A stretch of DNA of 64,000 nucleotides from an uncultured Clostridia bacterium (GTDB lineage Bacteria; Bacillota; Clostridia; Lachnospirales; Anaerotignaceae): the NCBI GenBank assembly GCA_944384265.1, contig CALWSR010000008.1, positions 1-64,000 on the forward strand, written 5' to 3'. The notes below the pieces were generated by a model. That model saw nothing but the letters and a program-made list of their open reading frames with translations, was not told the origin of the DNA and did no database searches. The stretch's first letter is position 1. Every line of letters begins with the position of its first letter. The position numbers and the translations under genes are program-made. Below are positions 605 to 44,414 of the stretch, piece by piece.

Positions 605-818
605 GCGGTCTAGAATGTAGCCAAAATCGACAGCCCTTTCTCAAAAGCGCATTTCATGCAAGCCTTTGAGGAGTAGATAGAAGTAGAAACACCATGGGCA
701 TAGCATTGTTTTTTTTATAGAAAATGAATTTGCGGATTAAAACAGCTTGGGAAAGGCCTCATTTCCCACCCCTTTTGCTCTCTTGCAGTCATATAAAGCT
801 GGCTTTGTATACAGCCTG
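605..818 (-). repeat. R1 repeat, diverged copy A
   Basis: Read on the minus strand, this stretch aligns by eye with the R1 copies at 23189-23403 and 40168-40395. It begins CAGGCTGTATAC (copy D begins CAGACTGTATAA). It keeps hairpin 1 as TGGGAAA/TTTCCCA (748-768) and the block CAAAGGCTTGCATGAAATG near 640-665. The middle has diverged. I see no flanking direct repeat, and the IS200 right end lies close to its far end. The boundary near 605 is approximate. The 475-910 stretch holds no credible gene. Confidence 0.6.
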
Positions 819-7152: not shown

Positions 7153-7300
7153 AAAAAAGGGCTGTCATAAAACAGCCAAATCATAGTGTACAAAAAACGG
7201 TTGCCCTTTGAGCAAATTTCACTCAGAAAACAGCCAATTTTCTATTCCTTGCAAGCCTGCTTTGCACAAGCTGCTGCCGCAATTTCATTTTGCAGCATCC
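7153..7300 (-). repeat. R2 repeat, copy 1
   Basis: First of three R2 copies. Plus-strand order is a GGGCTGT/ACAGCC hairpin, ATCATAGTGTACAAAAAACGG, TTTGAGCAAATTTCACTCAGAAAACAGCC and finally the CAGCTTG/GCAATTTCATTTTGC block. The minus strand carries a miniature frame of 21 codons (7223-7288) beginning MKLRQQL and ending KLAVF. Copies at 32136-32274 and 34575-34732 keep the same order and both frame ends. Confidence 0.65.
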
Positions 7301-7363
7301 TCCAAAATGTCAGCAATATCCATCTCATTTTTTACAGGTTTTGACAGTCGGGCAACAATCAGG
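7285..7363 (-). pseudogene. C-terminal gene fragment beside IS200 end
   Basis: Directly after the IS200 right end, the minus strand has an open frame reading LIVARLSKPVKNE then MDIADILEDAAK and a stop. It looks like the tail of a real protein, but it has no start and begins at the IS boundary. Its TGA overlaps the ATG of the R2 miniature frame as ATGA. I cannot name the family. Confidence 0.35.
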
Positions 7364-7406
7364 ACCACCGGCTTAGCCGGTGGTTTGCTCTGCCCCTAGA
7401 AGGGGC
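7364..7406 (-). repeat. IS200 right-end hairpins of the broken copy
   Basis: ACCACCGGC-TTA-GCCGGTGGT (7364-7384) is a 9-base-pair stem, and GCCCCT/AGGGGC (7392-7406) is a second hairpin. They lie downstream of the pseudogene transposase and are its right end. A near-identical solo copy sits at 881-925. Confidence 0.7.
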
Positions 7407-7560: not shown

Positions 7561-7925
7561 TCACTGATTGTTGACATATTCTCGAATCTTTTTTGTATTC
7601 CTTCCCACTGTATCAGCATAATATCCCCTGTCCTATTTCCATATTTGTACTTTAGGCTCGCATATCTGTCGAAAATAGTGAAAGCGCTTTTTCCTTTCAA
7701 ATATCCAATAATTTCTGATACATTAGACGGTATGGGAAGCAATATGTGTATATGATTCGGACAATACTCTGCTGCTATGCTTTCTATTCCTTTTCTATCA
7801 CATAATTCTCGAAGGATTTTTCCTATCTCAGCTTTCATTTTTCTGTATATTACCTGTCTTCTGTACTTTGGTGCGAATACAATATGATATTTACATTCCC
7901 AACTTGTATGTGATAAACGATTCAT
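7561..7925 (-). pseudogene. tnpA: Frameshifted IS200-family transposase
   Basis: The first about 100 codons match an IS200 transposase (MNRLSHTSWECKYHIVF, then the NHIHILLPIP HUH motif, then LKYKYGNR). The codons for about four residues (usually HFWA or NFWA) are then missing and the frame shifts near 7621-7632. After the shift the correct C-terminus is still readable in another frame: GYYADTVGRNTKKIREYVNNQ, written here in parts (GYYADTVG, then RNTKKIREYVNNQ), and a stop at 7561. That part carries the catalytic tyrosine, so the product would be inactive. Read straight through, the frame runs on to 7527 with an unrelated tail. Confidence 0.85.
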
Positions 7926-9485: not shown

Positions 9486-11694
9486 TTTTATCCCTTCCTT
9501 CCTGCTCTTTGGGATAATCCGGCTCATCATATGGCATTTGCTGATCATAGTCTACATCCTCTGGGGCAAAGGTATCCTCTTCCTCGTCCTCTGCCAAAAA
9601 TGCTTCTTCTTGTTTTTTCTTTTTTCTTTTTTGTATCAGCACAGCAGCAACAATGGCTGCCGCCACTATAATGCCCGCCGCTATTGCAATGATAACAGGC
9701 TTGCCCATACCCTCCTGCGGCATATCCTCCATGCCTGCCACATCCTCCACAGGCAGAGGCTCTATGACATCTAATACAAAATCCCGTTTTTCTTCTATGG
9801 TTTCTCCGCTGGCATCATCATAGCTTATGATAATGCTGACAGGCAGCTCTCCCATAGACATAGGGGTAAATGTGCCTTCATAATAATCACTGGAGCCGGA
9901 TTCTAAATTGCCAATATATGTATTTCTGGTTTGGGTATCCACATCTCCTTCAATGCGAATCATCAAATTGTTTAATGTCACCTTGCCTGTATTATAGTAA
10001 TTAAAATTGATTGTAACAGGCATACCCATTTCCACCTGCTCCGGCAGTGTATAATCATCCACATCCAGCTCTGTCACCTGCTTTACATTGATGCCCAAAA
10101 GCTCCTGAGAGGTATATTCATTTCCTTCATCGTCCTCATATTCAAAATTGACAGTCAATGTATATGTTTTTGGCTGGGCGTCCGGTACCACATAAAGGCG
10201 GAGTGCTTTTTCCACACTGCCCTTTGGCACAATGTCATCAAAATAAAATGTATTGCTGCTGTCCACCGGTGTAAAAATATTGCCTGTTTTTGCTGTGTCA
10301 GAGGAGGTTTCCTCTGCCATTGTCAAAAACATTTTGATATTATGCACCGCTTTATATTTATGGCTGTTCATCAATGTCATGGTCAAATCAAATTCTTCTC
10401 CTGCCATCACAATAAGAGGGTCACAGACATAGTCGCTTACAATAATTTTGGGCTTGCTTTTGGCTTCCTCCTCCTGCCCCTCCTTATCCTTTTCAGGATT
10501 GGATACATTGACACCTGCATACTGTTTAAATGTGGTCACATCCTCCCCGGAGGCTTGGTATTCTATTGTAAACTCTATGGGATAGTTTTGTGAAACAGCA
10601 GAGGCTGTGGCTGCAAATGTAAATGTAAAATGACTGGTTCCCTTTGGGGCCAATGCTTTTACATTTTTGATGCTGGTGGATTTTGGCACCACAGCACCGG
10701 CTTCTCCCATGCCTGCCGCCGTCACCTTTATATTTTTTGCTTCTCCTTCTCCAATGTTTGCAATATCAAAGCTGATTTCAAAATTTTCATTCACACCATA
10801 AATGCCTGTGGGTTCTTTCATATTGCGTATTTCCAAGCTGGGCTTTTGTGCAGAGGAACCGCCCACATTGACATAATAATTTTGAGATTTATCATAGGAG
10901 CGGCCTGCATCATCCTTGTAGGACAGCTTTAATGTAATGGGATAGGTGCCGCTGGCAATTTCCCCTCCTGCAATCAATGGAAATGAAAAACGCTCTGTGG
11001 TGCCGGGAGCAATGCGGGAAAAATACTTGCTGTCTAAAGCATTGTGAATGCTGATACCATCATTGGAAAGCCCCTCCAGTGTGAGTGTGGCCTCATGCAT
11101 TGTAATAAAATTGTTGTTTGTAATTTCTCCTGAAATGGTGGTGGTATCTCCAGCCTCTATTTCAGATGGTGTGATGGTTACATTTTCAAATTTAAAATCC
11201 GGCTCTCCCGAAAGATTATTGACTTTTAAATAAATGGTGCTGCTTCCTGTAAATTTTATATTATATACATTAAAAAAGCTGTAATTTAATGTGACAGGAT
11301 AGTTTTTTGTTGCTGCCGTTCTATCCACATCAACAGTCAGCTCCACTTCTGTTTCGCTTCTGGGAGCCAGTGCAGAAATACGATTTTCATTTCCTGCAAA
11401 TCCCACTGTAAAAGGAGTATTGTCAATGTCTGTAAATGTGGGCTGTATGACAATGGCCTTTGCGCCATAAGCACTGCCGTTTCGCAGCTTGATTTTAACT
11501 GTATTGGTTTTTCCCGGGGTCACTTCAAACACCGGTCCATTGATGAGTATCACCTCCGGCTGTGCCGCATTGGGGTCTACCGTCTCCTCCTCCCCTTCAC
11601 TGTCATATGTTGCTGCAAGGGCTGTCACGGGCAAAGCAGCAGACTGCAATGCCAATGCCAGTATCAAAAGAATGCTTGTAAGTATCTTTCTCAT
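9472..11694 (-). CDS. Secreted CARDB/S-layer-like adaptor with C-terminal anchor
   Basis: A 740-residue extracellular protein with a signal peptide (about 1-28, ending ALAATYDSEG) and tandem beta-sandwich repeats of the NEW3/CARDB kind (COG1361-like). Typical lines are VTPGKTNTVKIKLRN, FEISFDIANIGEGEAKNI and VEMGMPVTINFNYYNTGK. One membrane helix near the C-terminus (VIIAIAAGIIVAAAIVAAVLI) is followed by a charged cytoplasmic tail rich in Glu and Asp. It is encoded between the ATPase and permease with overlaps on both sides, so it probably works as the external part of the exporter, in place of a MacA-type adaptor. That role is inferred from context. Confidence 0.82.
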   Translation of the reverse strand: MRKILTSILLILALALQSAALPVTALAATYDSEGEEETVDPNAAQPEVILINGPVFEVTPGKTNTVKIKLRNGSAYGAKAIVIQPTFTDIDNTPFTVGFAGNENRISALAPRSETEVELTVDVDRTAATKNYPVTLNYSFFNVYNIKFTGSSTIYLKVNNLSGEPDFKFENVTITPSEIEAGDTTTISGEITNNNFITMHEATLTLEGLSNDGISIHNALDSKYFSRIAPGTTERFSFPLIAGGEIASGTYPITLKLSYKDDAGRSYDKSQNYYVNVGGSSAQKPSLEIRNMKEPTGIYGVNENFEISFDIANIGEGEAKNIKVTAAGMGEAGAVVPKSTSIKNVKALAPKGTSHFTFTFAATASAVSQNYPIEFTIEYQASGEDVTTFKQYAGVNVSNPEKDKEGQEEEAKSKPKIIVSDYVCDPLIVMAGEEFDLTMTLMNSHKYKAVHNIKMFLTMAEETSSDTAKTGNIFTPVDSSNTFYFDDIVPKGSVEKALRLYVVPDAQPKTYTLTVNFEYEDDEGNEYTSQELLGINVKQVTELDVDDYTLPEQVEMGMPVTINFNYYNTGKVTLNNLMIRIEGDVDTQTRNTYIGNLESGSSDYYEGTFTPMSMGELPVSIIISYDDASGETIEEKRDFVLDVIEPLPVEDVAGMEDMPQEGMGKPVIIAIAAGIIVAAAIVAAVLIQKRKKKKQEEAFLAEDEEEDTFAPEDVDYDQQMPYDEPDYPKEQEGRDKNEHL

Positions 11695-19649: not shown

Positions 19650-21023
19650 ATGAATGATTTAAAACAACAGCTGATTGCCATTGGCAAAAATATATTGCAG
19701 TCCTCCCGAAATGAGCTTTATCTATCCATGCGCTTTTTGGACATTGCATTGAGCGGACTGGAATATGAAATGAATTTGTCCACATTATATGTTGGCACAG
19801 ACGGCAGTAAAATATTATTCAATCCCCGTTATTTAACACAGCTTTATCAAAATGATGCCATATTGGTAAACAGAGCCTATATGCATATGCTTTTGCACTG
19901 TGTATTTCGCCATATGTTTCATAGAAACAAAAGAAAAGAGGATTATTGGAATTTGGCCTGTGACATTGCTGTGGAATCTATGATAGACCGTTTGCAGGTG
20001 CCTGCACTGCGCATGACAGTGTCTGATATGCGAGAAGAAACCTATGCCCTTATGGGCAAAAAATTAAATGTATTTACAGCAGAAGGCATTTATATACAGC
20101 TTTTGTCCATGTCTGTTTCTGAATTGCAGCTATTGAAATTGAGAAAGGAATTTTGGGTGGATGACCACAGCCTTTGGCAAAGCGATGAGGATGGAGAAAA
20201 TGAAAATCCACAAAACAATCCACAGCAGTCTCAGCAAAACACACCGGAGCAAAACAGTGCAAAACAGCAGCAGCTTTTGCAAAAATGGCAGGATATCAGC
20301 GAAAAAATGAAAACAAATTTGGAAACATTTCAAAAAGATATGGGACAAGAGGCAGGAGATTTGCTCTCCCATTTGAAAGTGGAAAACAGGCAGAGATATG
20401 ATTACCGCCGTTTTTTAGAAAAATTTGTCACACTAAAGGAAGAAATACAGCTGGACGAAGATGCCTTTGATACCGTATTTTATACCTATGGACTTCATAT
20501 GTATGGCAATATGCCTTTGATTGAAGCATTGGAATATAAAGAGGTGGAAAAAATAGAAGAGCTTGTCATTGCCATTGATACCTCCGAATCCTGCTCTGAT
20601 GGTATGATAAAGGGATTTTTGGAGGAAACCTACAATATATTACAAAGTAAGGAAAGCTTTTTTCAAAAATTTCAAATACACATAGTGCAATGTGATGCAG
20701 ACATACAGTCTGACACCCTCATCACAGACTATTTGCAATTACAAAAATATATGGAAAGCTTTGCAGTAAAAGGCGCAGGAGGCACTGATTTTCGTCCTGT
20801 TTTTGCCTATGTGGACAAGCTGATAGAGGAAAAAAAATTTAAAAATTTAAAAGGGCTTATTTATTTTACAGACGGCTATGGCACATTTCCTAAAAAACGC
20901 CCTGCCTATGACACAGCATTTGTATTTATGACACAGGGAGACAGAACCGTCACAGTTCCTCCCTGGGCTATGAAAGTGATATTGACACCGGAGGACCTGC
21001 AAATAAAGGAGGCAGAAAAATGA
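19650..21023 (+). CDS. DUF2201/VWA-like protein, degenerate metallopeptidase
   Basis: A 457-residue protein of the VWA-like DUF2201 type. The N-terminal half resembles a metallopeptidase but has H79-MLL-H83 and a further H88, where the usual HExxH would be: Glu is replaced by Met, so peptidase activity is doubtful. A Gln/Asn-rich linker spans about 185-215. The C-terminal von Willebrand A-like domain has a MIDAS motif D310-T-S312-E-S314 and GAGGTDFRPVF. The next gene, a MoxR-like ATPase, overlaps it as ATGA. VWA proteins paired with MoxR ATPases act in protein or metal-cofactor remodelling. Confidence 0.85.
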   Translation: MNDLKQQLIAIGKNILQSSRNELYLSMRFLDIALSGLEYEMNLSTLYVGTDGSKILFNPRYLTQLYQNDAILVNRAYMHMLLHCVFRHMFHRNKRKEDYWNLACDIAVESMIDRLQVPALRMTVSDMREETYALMGKKLNVFTAEGIYIQLLSMSVSELQLLKLRKEFWVDDHSLWQSDEDGENENPQNNPQQSQQNTPEQNSAKQQQLLQKWQDISEKMKTNLETFQKDMGQEAGDLLSHLKVENRQRYDYRRFLEKFVTLKEEIQLDEDAFDTVFYTYGLHMYGNMPLIEALEYKEVEKIEELVIAIDTSESCSDGMIKGFLEETYNILQSKESFFQKFQIHIVQCDADIQSDTLITDYLQLQKYMESFAVKGAGGTDFRPVFAYVDKLIEEKKFKNLKGLIYFTDGYGTFPKKRPAYDTAFVFMTQGDRTVTVPPWAMKVILTPEDLQIKEAEK

Positions 21024-22555
21024 ATATTAAACAAGCAAAGGAAGAAATCAAAAATACCATAAAGGCCTATTTGCAAAAGGACAGCTATGGTAATTACAAA
21101 ATACCCATTGTACGACAAAGGCCTGTTTTGCTCATAGGGGCTCCCGGCATTGGCAAAACAGCCATTATGGAGCAGATTGCAAGAGAATGCGGCATAGGCA
21201 TTGTTGCCTACACCATTACACACCACACCAGACAAAGTGCCATTGGTCTGCCCTTTATACGCCAAAAAATATATGGAGGAAAAGAATATTCTGTAACAGA
21301 ATATACCATGAGCGAAATCATTGCCTCTGTATATGAAAAAATAGAAAGCACAGGATTATCAGAGGGCATTCTTTTTATTGATGAAATCAACTGTGTTTCT
21401 GAAACACTTGCCCCTGCCATGCTTCAGTTTTTACAAAACAAAACATTCGGTACCCATCAGGTGCCTGAGGGCTGGCTCATTGCAGCAGCAGGCAATCCGC
21501 CGGAATACAACAAATCTGTAAGAGAATTTGATATTGTTACACTGGACAGAGTGAAAAAAATAGAAGTCATTGAGGATTTTACCATTTGGAAGGAATATGC
21601 CTATAAGCAATCCATTCACGGTGCCATTTTATCCTATTTAGAAATCAAAAAAGACCATTTTTATGTTGTAGAAACCACAGTGGATGGAAAGCACTTTGTG
21701 ACAGCAAGGGGCTGGGAGGATTTATCCCGCATGATGGAGGCCTATGAGGAGCTGGATATTGCCGTAAATGAAGGCGTCATCTATCAATATGTACAGCATA
21801 GAGCCATTGCAAAGGATTTTGCCAACTATCTGGATTTATATTACAAATATCAAAATGATTATCATGTGGAGGAAATATTACAGGGGCATATTTCCAAAAA
21901 TGCACTGAAAAAGCTTTCCTCTGCCTCATTTGATGAAAAGCTGAGTGTAATGGGCCTGCTTTTAAGCCGTTTGGGAGAAAACTTTAAACAGGTATATAGC
22001 ATGGATTTATTTGTCACTGCACTGCATGGTGTTTTGACACAAATGAAACCGCTTTTTTTGTCTGAAGAGGCCTCCTGCAATGAAATATTGCTGCAAGCTA
22101 TAAAAGAACAGACACAGCTTTTGCAACAGCAAAAAACAGCAAATCTTTTGGAGCCTTTGGAAATACAAAGCCGTATGCTGCTTTTGGAGGCACTGGAGCA
22201 GTATCAAAAAAATATAAATGAAAAAAATATACAAAATGGCTTGATTGGCTTTGAAAGTATAAAAGAAAGCTTTTCTGCTTCTGTGACCCAAAGAAAAGAA
22301 AAAATAGAAGAAACATCAGAATATTTAAACAATGCCTTTTTGTTTTTAGAGCAGGCATTTGGGGAAAATCAGGAAATTGTTATATTTATTACAGAGCTGA
22401 CAAGCAATCCATACAGTGTGCAGTTTATCAATGAAAATGGCTCGGAAAAATATTATCATTATAATAAATCCCTGCTTTTTGAAGAAAGACATAAGGATAT
22501 ATTGCAGCAAATTGATTCTGTTTCAGGTATGTTAGATACACTTCATTTGGACTGA
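21020..22555 (+). CDS. MoxR-like AAA+ ATPase
   Basis: A 511-residue AAA+ protein of the MoxR/midasin-like type. Walker A is GAPGIGKT (40-47), Walker B is ILFIDEIN (about 117-124), sensor 1 is in WLIAAAGNPPEYNKS and an arginine-finger region is in FDIVTLDRVKKIEV. The C-terminal 230 residues are helical and charged and not recognised. It overlaps the VWA gene by four bases, so both are made together. MoxR ATPases typically remodel a partner complex through a VWA protein; here the LRR protein may supply specificity. No terminator is visible directly after it. Confidence 0.88.
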   Translation: MNIKQAKEEIKNTIKAYLQKDSYGNYKIPIVRQRPVLLIGAPGIGKTAIMEQIARECGIGIVAYTITHHTRQSAIGLPFIRQKIYGGKEYSVTEYTMSEIIASVYEKIESTGLSEGILFIDEINCVSETLAPAMLQFLQNKTFGTHQVPEGWLIAAAGNPPEYNKSVREFDIVTLDRVKKIEVIEDFTIWKEYAYKQSIHGAILSYLEIKKDHFYVVETTVDGKHFVTARGWEDLSRMMEAYEELDIAVNEGVIYQYVQHRAIAKDFANYLDLYYKYQNDYHVEEILQGHISKNALKKLSSASFDEKLSVMGLLLSRLGENFKQVYSMDLFVTALHGVLTQMKPLFLSEEASCNEILLQAIKEQTQLLQQQKTANLLEPLEIQSRMLLLEALEQYQKNINEKNIQNGLIGFESIKESFSASVTQRKEKIEETSEYLNNAFLFLEQAFGENQEIVIFITELTSNPYSVQFINENGSEKYYHYNKSLLFEERHKDILQQIDSVSGMLDTLHLD

Positions 22556-23170: not shown

Positions 23171-23421
23171 AAGAAAGGCAAAAGCCTTGACTAGATTTTA
23201 TATTTTCTCAAGCCCGCAGAAAGGGTTGGAAAACGAAGGGCTTTCCAACCAAAATCCCCAGGGGGAATTTATTTCCCACCAGGAAAAGCAGGCGTTTCAA
23301 GGCTCTCAGCCCATGAAACCTCTGCTTTATACTTCTGTCTACTTTTCAAAGGCTTGCAGGAAATGAGAATTTGACCACAGTGTGTGGACCTTTTTACCAT
23401 CTGAAGAAATGCAAAAGCCTT
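23171..23421 (+). other. Direct repeats flanking R1 copy C
   Basis: The left repeat AAGAAAGGCAAAAGCCTT (23171-23188) and the right repeat AAGAAATGCAAAAGCCTT (23404-23421) match at 17 of 18 positions. They differ wholly from the repeats flanking copy D, so they belong to the target and not the element. The left copy is a small hairpin. Confidence 0.65.
23189..23403 (+). repeat. R1 repeat, copy C
   Basis: A 215-base element matching copy D at 40168-40395 along most of its length. It keeps hairpin 1 as GGTTGGAAA/TTTCCAACC (23224-23250), the AATCCCC/GGGGAATT hairpin, AAGCAGG, TTTCAAGGCT, CTTCTGTCTACT, CAAAGGCTTGC and the ending GTGTGGACCTTTTTACC. It is flanked by 18-base direct repeats (23171-23188 and 23404-23421) that differ at one base and contain the palindrome AAGGC-AAAA-GCCTT. 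There is no credible open frame. It looks like an inserted non-coding element. Confidence 0.75.
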
Positions 23422-23647
23422 CCTTATTTCCTATTTTAACAATCTATTTTGTCATGCCTTTTTATTTTACAGCATATTATTTGCTTTAAAATTCCTTTTT
23501 GAAGGGAAGCATATTAAATTGGGGGTTTGTTTCTTATACTATTGTTTTGAAGTATTTCTTTTATAATACAAAATATCATTTATTATTTATGATTCCTATT
23601 CCTTTTAATATCAGCAGCCCTGCCTTTCCAAAAGGGCTGTTTGAATG

Positions 23648-24907
23648 CTATTGCACTTTACAAATATCTGCTCCTAATTTTTTCAGCTTTTTTTCAATAT
23701 GATAATATCCTCTTTCAATGTGATATATATCGCTGATTTCTGTCTTCCCTTCTGCCGCCAATGCAGACAGTATCAGCCCTGCCCCCGCTCTCAAATCTGT
23801 GGCCTTCACCTGTGTTCCTGTCAATTTTTCTACCCCTTCAATAATGGCACTTCTGCTTTCGATGTTGATTTTTGCCCCCATTCTTTGCAGCTCTCCTGCG
23901 TGGAGAAATCTATTTTCAAACACCGTTTCTGTGATGACACTGGTGCCTTTTATCACAGAAAGCAGGCTCATAAAGGGTGCTTGCATATCTGTGGGAAATC
24001 CGGGAAAAGGCATTGTTTTTAAGCTAATAGGCTGTAATTTTGCTGTGGTATATACCCTTAATGTTTTTTCTGCTATTTTTTCTGTTTTCACATTGGCCTC
24101 TGAAAGCTTTGCCAATATGGGCTTTAAATCCCTTTCTACTACATTTTCTATCATGATATCTCCTTTTGTAATAGCGGCGGCAATCATAAATGTCCCTGCC
24201 TCAATTCTGTCAGGCATGACAGTATGTTCTGCTCCATGAAGCTTTTTGACTCCTGTAATGGTAATGGTGTCCGTACCCTCTCCTGAAATATCGGCGCCCA
24301 TTTTTTTTAAAAAAACAGCCAAGTCAATGATTTCCGGCTCTGCCGCCGCATTGACAATGGTTGTAACCCCCTTTGCCAATACAGCCGCCATCATAATATT
24401 TTCTGTTGCACCTACACTGGGAAAGTCCAAATAAATTTTATCTCCCTTGAGCTGTTTTGCAGTAATGTGTATGGAGCCATGGGCCTGCTGTGTTTTTGCC
24501 CCCAAGGCGGAAAATCCCTTCAAATGCAAATCCACAGGCCTGCTGCCAATGGGACAGCCTCCCGGCAATGGAATGTTTGCCTCCTTGCACCTTGCCAGCA
24601 AAGGCCCCATAATGAGAAAGGAGCCTCTTAATTTTCCTGCTTTTTCATAATCTGCTTCTGTTTTTAATATATTTTTTGCTTTTATCCATATGGCTTCCTG
24701 CTCTTTTTGAAATACAATGTCTATACCCATATCCGAAAGCATACTGCAAAGTGCTGTTACATCAGAAAGCACAGGAACAGATTTTATAACACATTCTTCC
24801 TCTGTCAGCAGTGTGGCTGCTAATATAGGCAATATGGCATTTTTAGAGCCACTGATGGCTACATTCCCTTTCAGCCCCTTGCTTGTTCCTACTATAAATT
24901 TTGCCAT
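23648..24907 (-). CDS. murA: UDP-GlcNAc 1-carboxyvinyltransferase MurA
   Basis: MurA transfers enolpyruvate from phosphoenolpyruvate to UDP-N-acetylglucosamine, the first committed step of peptidoglycan synthesis, in the cytoplasm. The 419-residue length is typical. K22 in SGSKNAILP and the active-site C118 in PGGCPIGSRPVDLHL are present, so it should be sensitive to fosfomycin. The last part, AAEGKTEISDIYHIERGYYHIEKKL, matches the family. The start MAKFIV has AGAAAGGATTGTACC upstream. It stands alone, with gene-poor DNA downstream. Confidence 0.96.
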   Translation of the reverse strand: MAKFIVGTSKGLKGNVAISGSKNAILPILAATLLTEEECVIKSVPVLSDVTALCSMLSDMGIDIVFQKEQEAIWIKAKNILKTEADYEKAGKLRGSFLIMGPLLARCKEANIPLPGGCPIGSRPVDLHLKGFSALGAKTQQAHGSIHITAKQLKGDKIYLDFPSVGATENIMMAAVLAKGVTTIVNAAAEPEIIDLAVFLKKMGADISGEGTDTITITGVKKLHGAEHTVMPDRIEAGTFMIAAAITKGDIMIENVVERDLKPILAKLSEANVKTEKIAEKTLRVYTTAKLQPISLKTMPFPGFPTDMQAPFMSLLSVIKGTSVITETVFENRFLHAGELQRMGAKINIESRSAIIEGVEKLTGTQVKATDLRAGAGLILSALAAEGKTEISDIYHIERGYYHIEKKLKKLGADICKVQ

Positions 24908-31909: not shown

Positions 31910-32135
31910 ATGATGCATTGCAAACAGACAAGGCTTTATTCCATAGGGTGATATGATTGAGCAATGGTATGATATGGCCGAAAACAGACTGTTTTTACAG
32001 CAGCCGCTCCATATATGAAAAAAGCAGTGCTTGAAACAGAAAACTTCATAGATGCAAATGCTTTGAAGCCCTACTGTGGGGAATGCACTTTCCAATCTCT
32101 AGTGGCATCAAAACTAGATTGTATCCTATCTAAAA

Positions 32136-32274
32136 CAACCAAAGCATAGCGTACAAAAACCGGTTGCCTTTTGAGTAAATTCCACTCAGAAAACAGCCGG
32201 TTTTTTATTATCTGGAAACTTATTATCTAAAAACTTTCTTTGTGCAAGCTGCTGCAATTTCATTTTGCCGCAGC
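32136..32274 (-). repeat. R2 repeat, copy 2
   Basis: R2 copy with a strong hairpin AAAACCGG/CCGGTTTT (32156-32204) followed by a T-run on the plus strand, so it can end plus-strand transcription. The minus strand has a 25-codon miniature frame (32186-32263) beginning MKLQQLAQRK and ending NKKPAVF. It lies just downstream of sdaAA. Confidence 0.65.
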
Positions 32275-32348
32275 CCCTGAAATTTTTTATGTACAGCAAA
32301 TGCTTGATTGAAAAAACAGAAGTATTTTTATAACTGCTTACAAAACAT

Positions 32349-34126: not shown

Positions 34127-34574
34127 ATGAAGCAATCTGCTAGCTTTTTTTGTTATCTGCTGTTGTGAAAAAAGCTTACTGTTTTAGTATGAATCCTTCT
34201 CCCAGTTAGTATCTCTTTCATTGATTTTATATTCTTTTTGCATTTTTTACTTCTCTGCAAATAACATCTGCACCAGTATATCTAAATATGCACCTCATAT
34301 CCTGCTCTTTTTCCTAAAAATTGATATGCTTATTTTAGGAGATATTTTCACCGGCATATGTATGTGGTTGGGGCATATCTCCGCTTTTATCATGATACGC
34401 TTTTTTTGTGCATATAATTTGTATTCCTATTTCTCTCATTGCCCTTTTTTTTACTATGCTTTTGCAACTGGCAAAGCCCGATTTTATGACGGTAAAAAGG
34501 CATTTTTCTGCATCAATGCCAAAGGGCTTTATGGAACCATGCCGCTAACAGGTGGTTTTATTTACACAAAAAAG

Positions 34575-34732
34575 GAGGTGTGGCAAAATGAAATTGCAGC
34601 AGCTTGCACAAAGAAAGCTTCCAAATAATAAAAAGCCGGCTGTTTTCTGAGTGGAATTTGCTCAAAAGGCAACCGGCTTTGTACACCATGATATTAAAAG
34701 GGCCATTTTGCAACAGCCCCTTTTAATATCAT
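34575..34732 (+). repeat. R2 repeat, copy 3
   Basis: R2 copy in the opposite orientation to copies 1 and 2. The 20-codon frame at 34588-34650 starts MKLQQLAQRK, ends NKKPAVF and has an excellent ribosome site (AAGGAGGTGTGGCAAA). The AAAGCCGG/CCGGCTTT hairpin overlaps its end. A 15-base-pair hairpin (34688-34702 with 34718-34732), containing GGCCATTTTGCAACAGCC, closes the unit and may terminate ribH from the other strand. Confidence 0.65.
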
Positions 34733-38479: not shown

Positions 38480-38540
38480 CAAACTACAACATGAAAAAAT
38501 GATACACAAAAAACAATGCATAACAATATTTTTATGGTTT

Positions 38541-38662
38541 CTTCTTTCATCCAGACTATTACTGTCGGTTTTGGAATTGCACCAAATCCTGAGCATTTGC
38601 TCCTGCGTTTGCACGCTCGCGGACTTTACCGCCGATCGGGAATTACACCCTGCCCTGAAGAA
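38541..38662 (-). promoter_or_regulatory. FMN riboswitch (RFN element)
   Basis: The minus strand contains the conserved RFN blocks in order: TTCAGGGCAGGGTG, AATTCCCGATCGGCGGTA, AAGTCCGCGAGC, GGATTTGGTGCAATTCC, AAAACCGACAGTA and AGTCTGGATGAAAGAAGA. FMN binding would favour the terminator at 38447-38479 and switch off ribD-ribE-ribBA(-ribH). Confidence 0.97.
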
Positions 38663-38788
38663 CACTTTTATTCATTTTTTTTATGATACACCTATTTTTG
38701 TCATTTGTAAAGCATTTTTTGAAATTTTTTTCACAATTTTCATTTTATTTTTTGTATTGTTTGAATTGCAGTGCATATTTATACAATA

Positions 38789-40146: not shown

Positions 40147-40416
40147 TATTATGCTGTTTGCATAAATCAGACTGTATAAAAGCTAGCTTTTATATTTTTT
40201 TAAAGGCACAAAAGCGGTTGGGAAACGAAGGGTTTTCCAACTGAAATCCCCAATGGGAATTTATTTCCGGGGGAAAAAGCAGGCATTTCAAGGCTTTTAG
40301 CCCATGGAGCCTCTACTTTATACTTCTGTCTACTCGTCAAAGGCTTGCATGAAATGAGCCTTTGACGACAAGGTGTGGACCTTTTCCCCGCACTGTATTA
40401 TGCTGTTTGCATAAAT
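40147..40416 (+). other. Direct repeats flanking R1 copy D
   Basis: An identical 21-base sequence occurs at 40147-40167 and 40396-40416, immediately outside the element. It contains the palindrome TTATGC-TGTTT-GCATAA. The right copy touches the leuD stop codon, so the original site was a small hairpin directly after leuD. The repeats look like a target duplication. Confidence 0.75.
40168..40395 (+). repeat. R1 repeat, copy D (best preserved)
   Basis: A 228-base non-coding element between leuD and leuB, starting CAGACTGTATAAAAGC and ending GGACCTTTTCCCCGCACTG. It folds into at least three hairpins: GTTGGGAAAC/GTTTTCCAAC (40217-40241), AATCCC/GGGAATT (about 40245-40261) and TCGTCAAAGGCT/AGCCTTTGACGA (40334-40368). 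The flanks carry perfect 21-base direct repeats. Copies C and A share its layout. Nothing in it looks coding. Confidence 0.8.
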
Positions 40417-44100: not shown

Positions 44101-44367
44101 AAAAACCCTTCATCTTCTTTCAAAAGAAGATGAAAGGCAAATCCTTCCACGGTACCACTTCTATTTATCCCAAAAAGGGATACACCTCACACAGATACTG
44201 GTTAAAAAACCTAATATCCTGTTCCTATAACGTGGAACCTACGTTACCGCCTATGAAAAGCATTCAGCGAACCACTCCGAGGCCAGTTCAGCTTTCTTCT
44301 GCTGATTGTCTTGCACCCTCCGACAACTCTCTGTATTGTTCCAAAAGCTTACTACTCCTCATCACTG
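44101..44367 (-). promoter_or_regulatory. T-box leader of leuA
   Basis: The minus strand shows a T-box leader from GATGAGGAGTAGTAAG to the T-box itself, GAAGTGGTACCGTGGAAGG, followed by a strong terminator whose arms TTCATCTTCTTT and AAAGAAGATGAA end in T8. The specifier region reads GAA-CTG-G, with CTC just after it; both are leucine codons, fitting tRNA-Leu sensing. Which codon is in the loop needs a fold. Confidence 0.92.
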
Positions 44368-44414
44368 TGTTTTAAAACATATTTATCATGAGAATAAATT
44401 TAGCACAAATCAAT

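Follow-up and report, generated by a model that had tools for sequence, protein, structure and literature searches.

Short gene-less elements of Anaerotignum-type Clostridia lie between direct repeats as long as the hairpins they contain

The window, the whole stretch of 64,000 nucleotides analysed here (contig CALWSR010000008.1, positions 1 to 64,000), carries several copies of a short repeated element, R1. Copy C lies between an AAA-type ATPase gene on the plus strand (21020-22555) and a murA-like gene on the minus strand (23648-24907), both named by reading their translations without a family search. The two genes are convergent, and the gap between convergent genes is the usual location of a two-way terminator. 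The element occupies positions 23189..23403 of the plus strand (215 nt), and, read from the sequence as in the original prediction, its 18-nt flanks match at 17 of 18 positions. The AAGGC-AAAA-GCCTT stem that had been described for both flanks is intact in the left one, whereas the right one reads AATGC and loses one pair. The left hairpin copy (23171..23188, plus strand) is AAGAAAGGCAAAAGCCTT. The right 18-nt repeat, AAGAAATGCAAAAGCCTT (23404-23421), belongs to a longer imperfect hairpin that runs on to CCTT, so that the right hairpin copy is AAGAAATGCAAAAGCCTTCCTT (23404..23425, plus strand). The left flank ends at GCCTT, and the element then starts with GACTAG and not with CAGACTGTANAAAAACTAG. 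Since the left hairpin stops early and the element lacks its usual start, a deletion at the left tip is indicated: by comparison with other copies, about 14 nt of the element appear to have been removed, probably together with the final 4 nt of the left hairpin, and the original duplication was therefore probably 22 nt long.

Copy D is preserved at both ends and lies between leuB- and leuD-like genes. Its 228 nt (40168..40395, plus strand) have the complete ends CAGACTGTATAAAAG...CCCGCACTG and are enclosed by a left hairpin copy, TATTATGCTGTTTGCATAAAT (40147..40167, plus strand), and a right copy (40396..40416, plus strand) that matches it perfectly. A degenerate copy on the minus strand (611..818, approximate boundaries) has no recognisable flanking repeats. 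Three further segments of the window (7168-7277, 32131-32278 and 34573-34680) form a second repeat family of about 80-150 nt, which is 82-92% alike, unrelated to R1 and includes an inverted pair 2.3 kb apart. On the minus strand, an FMN riboswitch (38535-38666) and a T-box leader (44123-44374) score above the Rfam gathering score.

A DNA search of the same genome, of the Anaerotignum type, finds 43 matching pieces, corresponding to about 40 copies. Complete R1 copies measure about 200-230 bp, start with CAGACTGTANAAAAACTAGATTTTATATTTTTTCAAG and finish with GTCGACTTTTTCNACACCCTG, which together form a short imperfect terminal inverted repeat with the scheme CAG..TGT..AAAAA. The ends follow the patterns CAGACTGTNRAAAAA (left) and NNTTTTTCGACACNCTG (right), or CAGACTGTNRAAAAA / CAGNGTGTCGAAAAA at the two ends in the end-pattern searches, and nearly every copy has precise CAG...CTG ends. 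R1 is non-coding: it has no reading frame, and no open frame is reported in its matches of about 140-350 bp. At E <= 1e-4, relatives of R1 are present in 41 of 58 genomes of the GTDB family to which this one belongs, spread over 13 of 17 genera; this count includes genomes without intact ends. The named matches are Anaerotignum species, Clostridium sp. MD294 (ASF356) and uncultured Lachnospiraceae-type Clostridia, and one genome of the family, G051, holds about 80 copies with 155 ends. Three pairs of handles (G021/G005, G015/G007 and G018/G013) each apparently denote one genome, and they are not independent because their coordinates are the same. R1 itself has no match in the phage and plasmid collections. 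By its anatomy (short, gene-less, with terminal inverted repeats and direct target repeats), R1 is a MITE.

The interior of R1 is structured. Its helices are conserved, with 25 of 43 pairs changed on both sides and 93% of cells paired, and the core covariation score is 0.357 compared with 0.174 for shuffles and at most 0.117 for slid controls. R1 has no Rfam match at the gathering score in the window, and a relaxed threshold on related loci gives no family either; the top score over these searches is 26 bits for Clostridiales-2, against a gathering score of 58.6. Six loci of Anaerotignum relatives (L081, L084, L094, L119, L127 and L128) carry extra modules of about 60 nt in the hairpin loops of R1, GGTCAACACATTTGC...GCGGTGTGT and GCACCCCGAAAGAGACGGGGGCAGCGAAGC..., once in tandem (L127).

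In most copies, direct repeats abut both ends of the element with zero gap. Each of these repeats forms a hairpin, usually that of an intrinsic terminator, with a sequence different at every site, for example AGCTAGTGTAATTTTTTAATTACACTAGCC (L095), AAGCTCTGGAATATCCAGAGCT (L014), AGAGTATGTCACTTTATATGACATACTCT (L121) and AAATCCCCCTTGCATGTTTTTGCAAGGGGGATTT (L127). The original prediction had proposed a choice of hairpin targets from two copies, and it is borne out by a very large excess in 39 copies and then in 56 more from other genera. The palindrome test that the original prediction called for, run on the 39 copies of the same genome and its relatives with repeats abutting both ends, gives strong enrichment of hairpins over 4000 intergenic control segments. 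In 33 of the 39 copies, the centres of dyad and repeat are no more than 1 nt apart, compared with 17% of controls (binomial P 4e-20), and a strong centred palindrome is present in 59% of the copies compared with 1.9% of controls (binomial P 1e-29); shuffling the flanking repeats gives a median z of -3.5. The repeats are 16-34 nt long. Among copies with identical repeats, the modal length is 2 nt more than the stretch bounded by the outermost G:C pair, and the other genera share this mode. Repeat length correlates with stem span at rho 0.68 in the 19 copies with identical repeats and at 0.24 in 38 copies, a relationship no more than moderate when older, decayed copies are counted in. In the other genera, rho is 0.44 (36 copies), with a stem span that was measured inside the repeat and hence cannot exceed it.

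Most of the targets are intrinsic terminators. Of the sites with long repeats, 62 of 73 have an A-tract immediately preceding the hairpin or a T-tract immediately following it, but only 1 of 9 with short repeats does, compared with a background rate of about 11% per side. Where the tract is on one side only, the count is 21 to 16, and the element thus has no clear orientation preference.

The length of the duplication falls into two classes. G051 has the same element both in hairpins and in plain AT-rich DNA, and the lengths were compared in 56 copies from this genome and two other genera. Clean non-hairpin sites (n = 7) have duplications of 8, 8, 9, 9, 10, 10 and 10 nt, such as TTATAAGT, AATATTATCA and CATATCTTTT, whereas hairpin sites (n = 37, median -15 kcal/mol) have duplications of 19-32 nt. 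No duplication of these genera lies between 11 and 18 nt, two short values at or beside hairpins (L200 and L240) were left out of the count, and 10 of the 56 copies have no repeat. A few repeats from G021 and G002, of 4-7, 11 and 13 nt, fit neither class cleanly.

We consider it probable that R1 is a non-autonomous, MITE-like element, moved in trans by a transposase that recognises its ends, prefers hairpins and duplicates them whole. The same distribution might have arisen through survival, if a transposase indifferent to hairpins inserted widely and selection left the insertions in terminators, which lie between genes. All copies detailed here are intergenic, such as copies C and D, and an insertion that duplicates a terminator keeps a terminator on its outer side, as this explanation would predict. 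However, centred strong palindromes are enriched about 30-fold over other intergenic DNA, and survival fails to account for a duplication that is centred on the dyad and matches the hairpin in length when non-hairpin sites of the same genome have 8-10 bp. We therefore regard survival as an unlikely explanation.

An empty site and a set of unrelated elements bear on what is inserted. The flanks of one copy (L013, in G000) align to a region of G002 that has the same two genes, no element and one terminator hairpin, AAAAGAGCAGTATTTTCTGCTCTTTTTT; this single hairpin favours insertion with duplication over an element with hairpins of its own. Duplicated hairpins also enclose elements of 174, 233 and about 244 bp in two genera (g6 and g10); these elements have no more than 15-27 terminal nucleotides in common with R1. 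On a gut viral contig (L304), a 202-bp element whose 16 terminal nucleotides equal those of R1 has a copy of ACAGGGCGCTGAAAAGCGCCCTGT on each side, and two relatives of it, on human faecal phage scaffolds (L316 and L319), also lie between duplicated hairpins. The other matches on viral contigs are mostly chance ones inside genes, and L304 is the one real relative. The L304 element (reverse strand, 10900-11101) and those of L316 and L319 form another structured family, which has ends of the same type and the core ..CGACATGTGCG...

Since unrelated interiors with the same ends behave alike, the end sequence is the recognised part, and the ends are sufficient. The structured core of R1 is dispensable for hairpin targeting, because unrelated elements also target hairpins, and hairpin duplication thus reaches wider than R1. 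These elements also bear on an RNA route, in which the structured core is transcribed and then reverse-transcribed into nicked hairpins by target priming, giving variable duplications. Such a route would suit the strong covariation of the core and the variable duplication length, but the inverted repeats are conserved at both ends and the core is not needed, which makes it quite improbable.

For the transposase that acts in trans, we propose the following course. The enzyme would recognise the terminal inverted repeats of R1 and, in ordinary AT-rich DNA, would transfer the strands at points some 8-10 bp from each other. It would favour a hairpin-forming sequence as its target, in practice an intrinsic terminator, presumably attacked as an extruded cruciform or single-strand hairpin. 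The element ends would be joined to the two strands, one at each foot of the extruded hairpin, where a four-way junction would bring both attack points close in space although they are 20-34 nt apart in sequence. Gap repair would then duplicate the whole hairpin, giving a direct repeat of the stem-loop and about one nucleotide per side. Attack on the junction would account for the centring and the variable length, for the two classes and for the tandem arrays of G001, in which hairpin, element, hairpin, element and hairpin follow one another (L053/L056, L074/L059 and L071); such arrays are expected, because each duplicated hairpin would remain a target. A duplication as long as the hairpin suggests that the putative enzyme recognises the shape of the DNA rather than its sequence.

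CRISPR adaptation resembles this geometry. Cas1-Cas2 duplicates a palindromic repeat by attacking its opposite ends on opposite strands, with a length fixed by a ruler and at a fixed leader site. A Cas1-like integrase that moves R1 in the same way would yield a palindrome of 20-34 bp on both sides of the insert, as well as the tandem arrays of G001. In R1, however, the length depends on the hairpin, with 8-10 bp where there is none, the sites are many and different, and the inserts bear transposon-like inverted repeats. A Cas1-like integrase is accordingly very unlikely.

A transposase gene bounded by R1 ends was not found in any genome examined, several of which are fragmented assemblies, and because of this we infer the class of the enzyme, a DDE-type transposase. 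The search for an autonomous copy, by end pattern in the same genome and its relatives and then over 3-6 kb behind lone ends, gave short elements and host genes only, and no known transposase locus that was inspected has R1 ends. These repeats break the assemblies of several genomes, so that an autonomous copy may have been missed; alternatively, a single-copy host gene may encode the enzyme, or the enzyme may have been lost. The missing gene would also be expected if no dedicated target-recognising transposase existed and a host enzyme cut hairpins or cruciforms, with the element captured at the break during repair, and hairpin-length duplications are likewise expected from such breaks. The precise CAG...CTG ends and the 8-10 bp duplications at non-hairpin sites nevertheless require an end-recognising enzyme, and we judge capture at host breaks highly improbable.

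Five transposase domains were looked for, of which Y1_Tnp, Transposase_mut and DDE_Tnp_1_3 are unlikely or excluded as the source of R1. An origin from IS200/IS605 or from RAYT and REP sequences was rejected, as Y1_Tnp (PF01797) is absent from G002, a complete genome, and from G021 and G051; these genomes without a match are those with the most intact copies. A derivative of the IS256 family was rejected on the absence of Transposase_mut (PF00872) from G002, G051, G021, G019 and G060, and one of the IS982 type because DDE_Tnp_1_3 (PF13612) has matches in just 2 of 10 genomes, none of them in G000 or G002. DDE_Tnp_1 (PF01609), the domain of the IS4/IS5/IS1634 group, is absent from G002, which could have lost the enzyme, and the IS1182 family domain PF13751 is absent from G000, the single genome searched. 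A group IIC intron was also rejected: group II intron RNA has no Rfam match in the window at the gathering threshold, and relaxed searches of related loci give no relevant match. That R1 is moved, like REP palindromes, by a single-strand HUH (Y1) transposase of the kind seen in IS200/IS605 or RAYT is highly improbable, for although R1 is a non-autonomous element rich in hairpins and Y1 transposases abound in G000, G001 and G015, the domain is lacking where intact copies are richest and IS200/IS605 insertion is not known to produce a target duplication.

The window has Y1 sequences of its own: IS200/IS605-type Y1 transposase genes or remnants lie at 46-402 and 7635-7904. Hairpin arms are present at 883-933 / 7354-7404, and the AACCACCGGCTTAGCCGGTGGTTTGCTCTGCCCC hairpins near the Y1 genes look like the right ends of these genes. 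In G001, the Y1 transposase domain matches about 150 times, in many cases with an interrupting in-frame TGA; these are either decaying IS200/IS605 copies or cases of TGA readthrough.

Several known systems share parts of this behaviour. Group IIC introns and two IS elements directed at REP palindromes, IS1397 and IS1111, target terminator hairpins or palindromes, as R1 does. These introns, however, are not known to make a target duplication and IS1397 makes duplications of 3-4 bp, whereas that of R1 is of hairpin length. In the sections of PMC10969869 drawn on here, IS1111 is inserted in the QMITE2 palindrome, and the bacterial MITEs RUP, BrickBuilt and Chunjie are, like R1, short, non-coding, intergenic and hairpin-rich, with high copy numbers and with inverted and direct repeats. 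Whole-hairpin duplication is not described for MITEs in the sections of PMC10969869 and PMC4596501 used; in the latter, BrickBuilt lies near terminators in 10 of 19 cases, and its duplications are unrelated and irregular. IS1549 and IS1634 have direct repeats of variable length (8 to 514 bp), as R1 does, but in the part of PMC2266710 that covers them these repeats are presented without a mechanistic model and no link to hairpins is stated. The consensus end of the IS1634 family in the table of that paper, C-----YT, does not fit the R1 end, CAGACTGT, and the IS1634 group domain is lacking from G002, as described above. MITEs are already known, and it is the duplication of hairpin length that appears new; neither such a duplication nor insertion in terminators with copying of the hairpin was found in the open-access literature, the only literature covered, in which an absence weighs little.

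The length of a target duplication is normally a fixed signature of the transposase. Here, one element gives 8-10 bp or 19-34 nt according to the folding of the target, which points to structure-guided target choice, and the model is testable for variable-length duplications such as those of IS1549/IS1634. It is possible, though our estimate falls just short of even, that a class of transposase prefers the extruded hairpin, as a four-way junction or a single-strand hairpin, and duplicates exactly it, so that the fold of the target sets the length, and that this class moves several unrelated non-coding elements across Clostridia. If it exists, other unexplained duplications of variable length could be explained. 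Such an enzyme is also a possible tool for insertion at neutral sites. For the elements themselves, landing in terminators and copying them would permit spread with little harm to the host, because a complete hairpin remains on each side.
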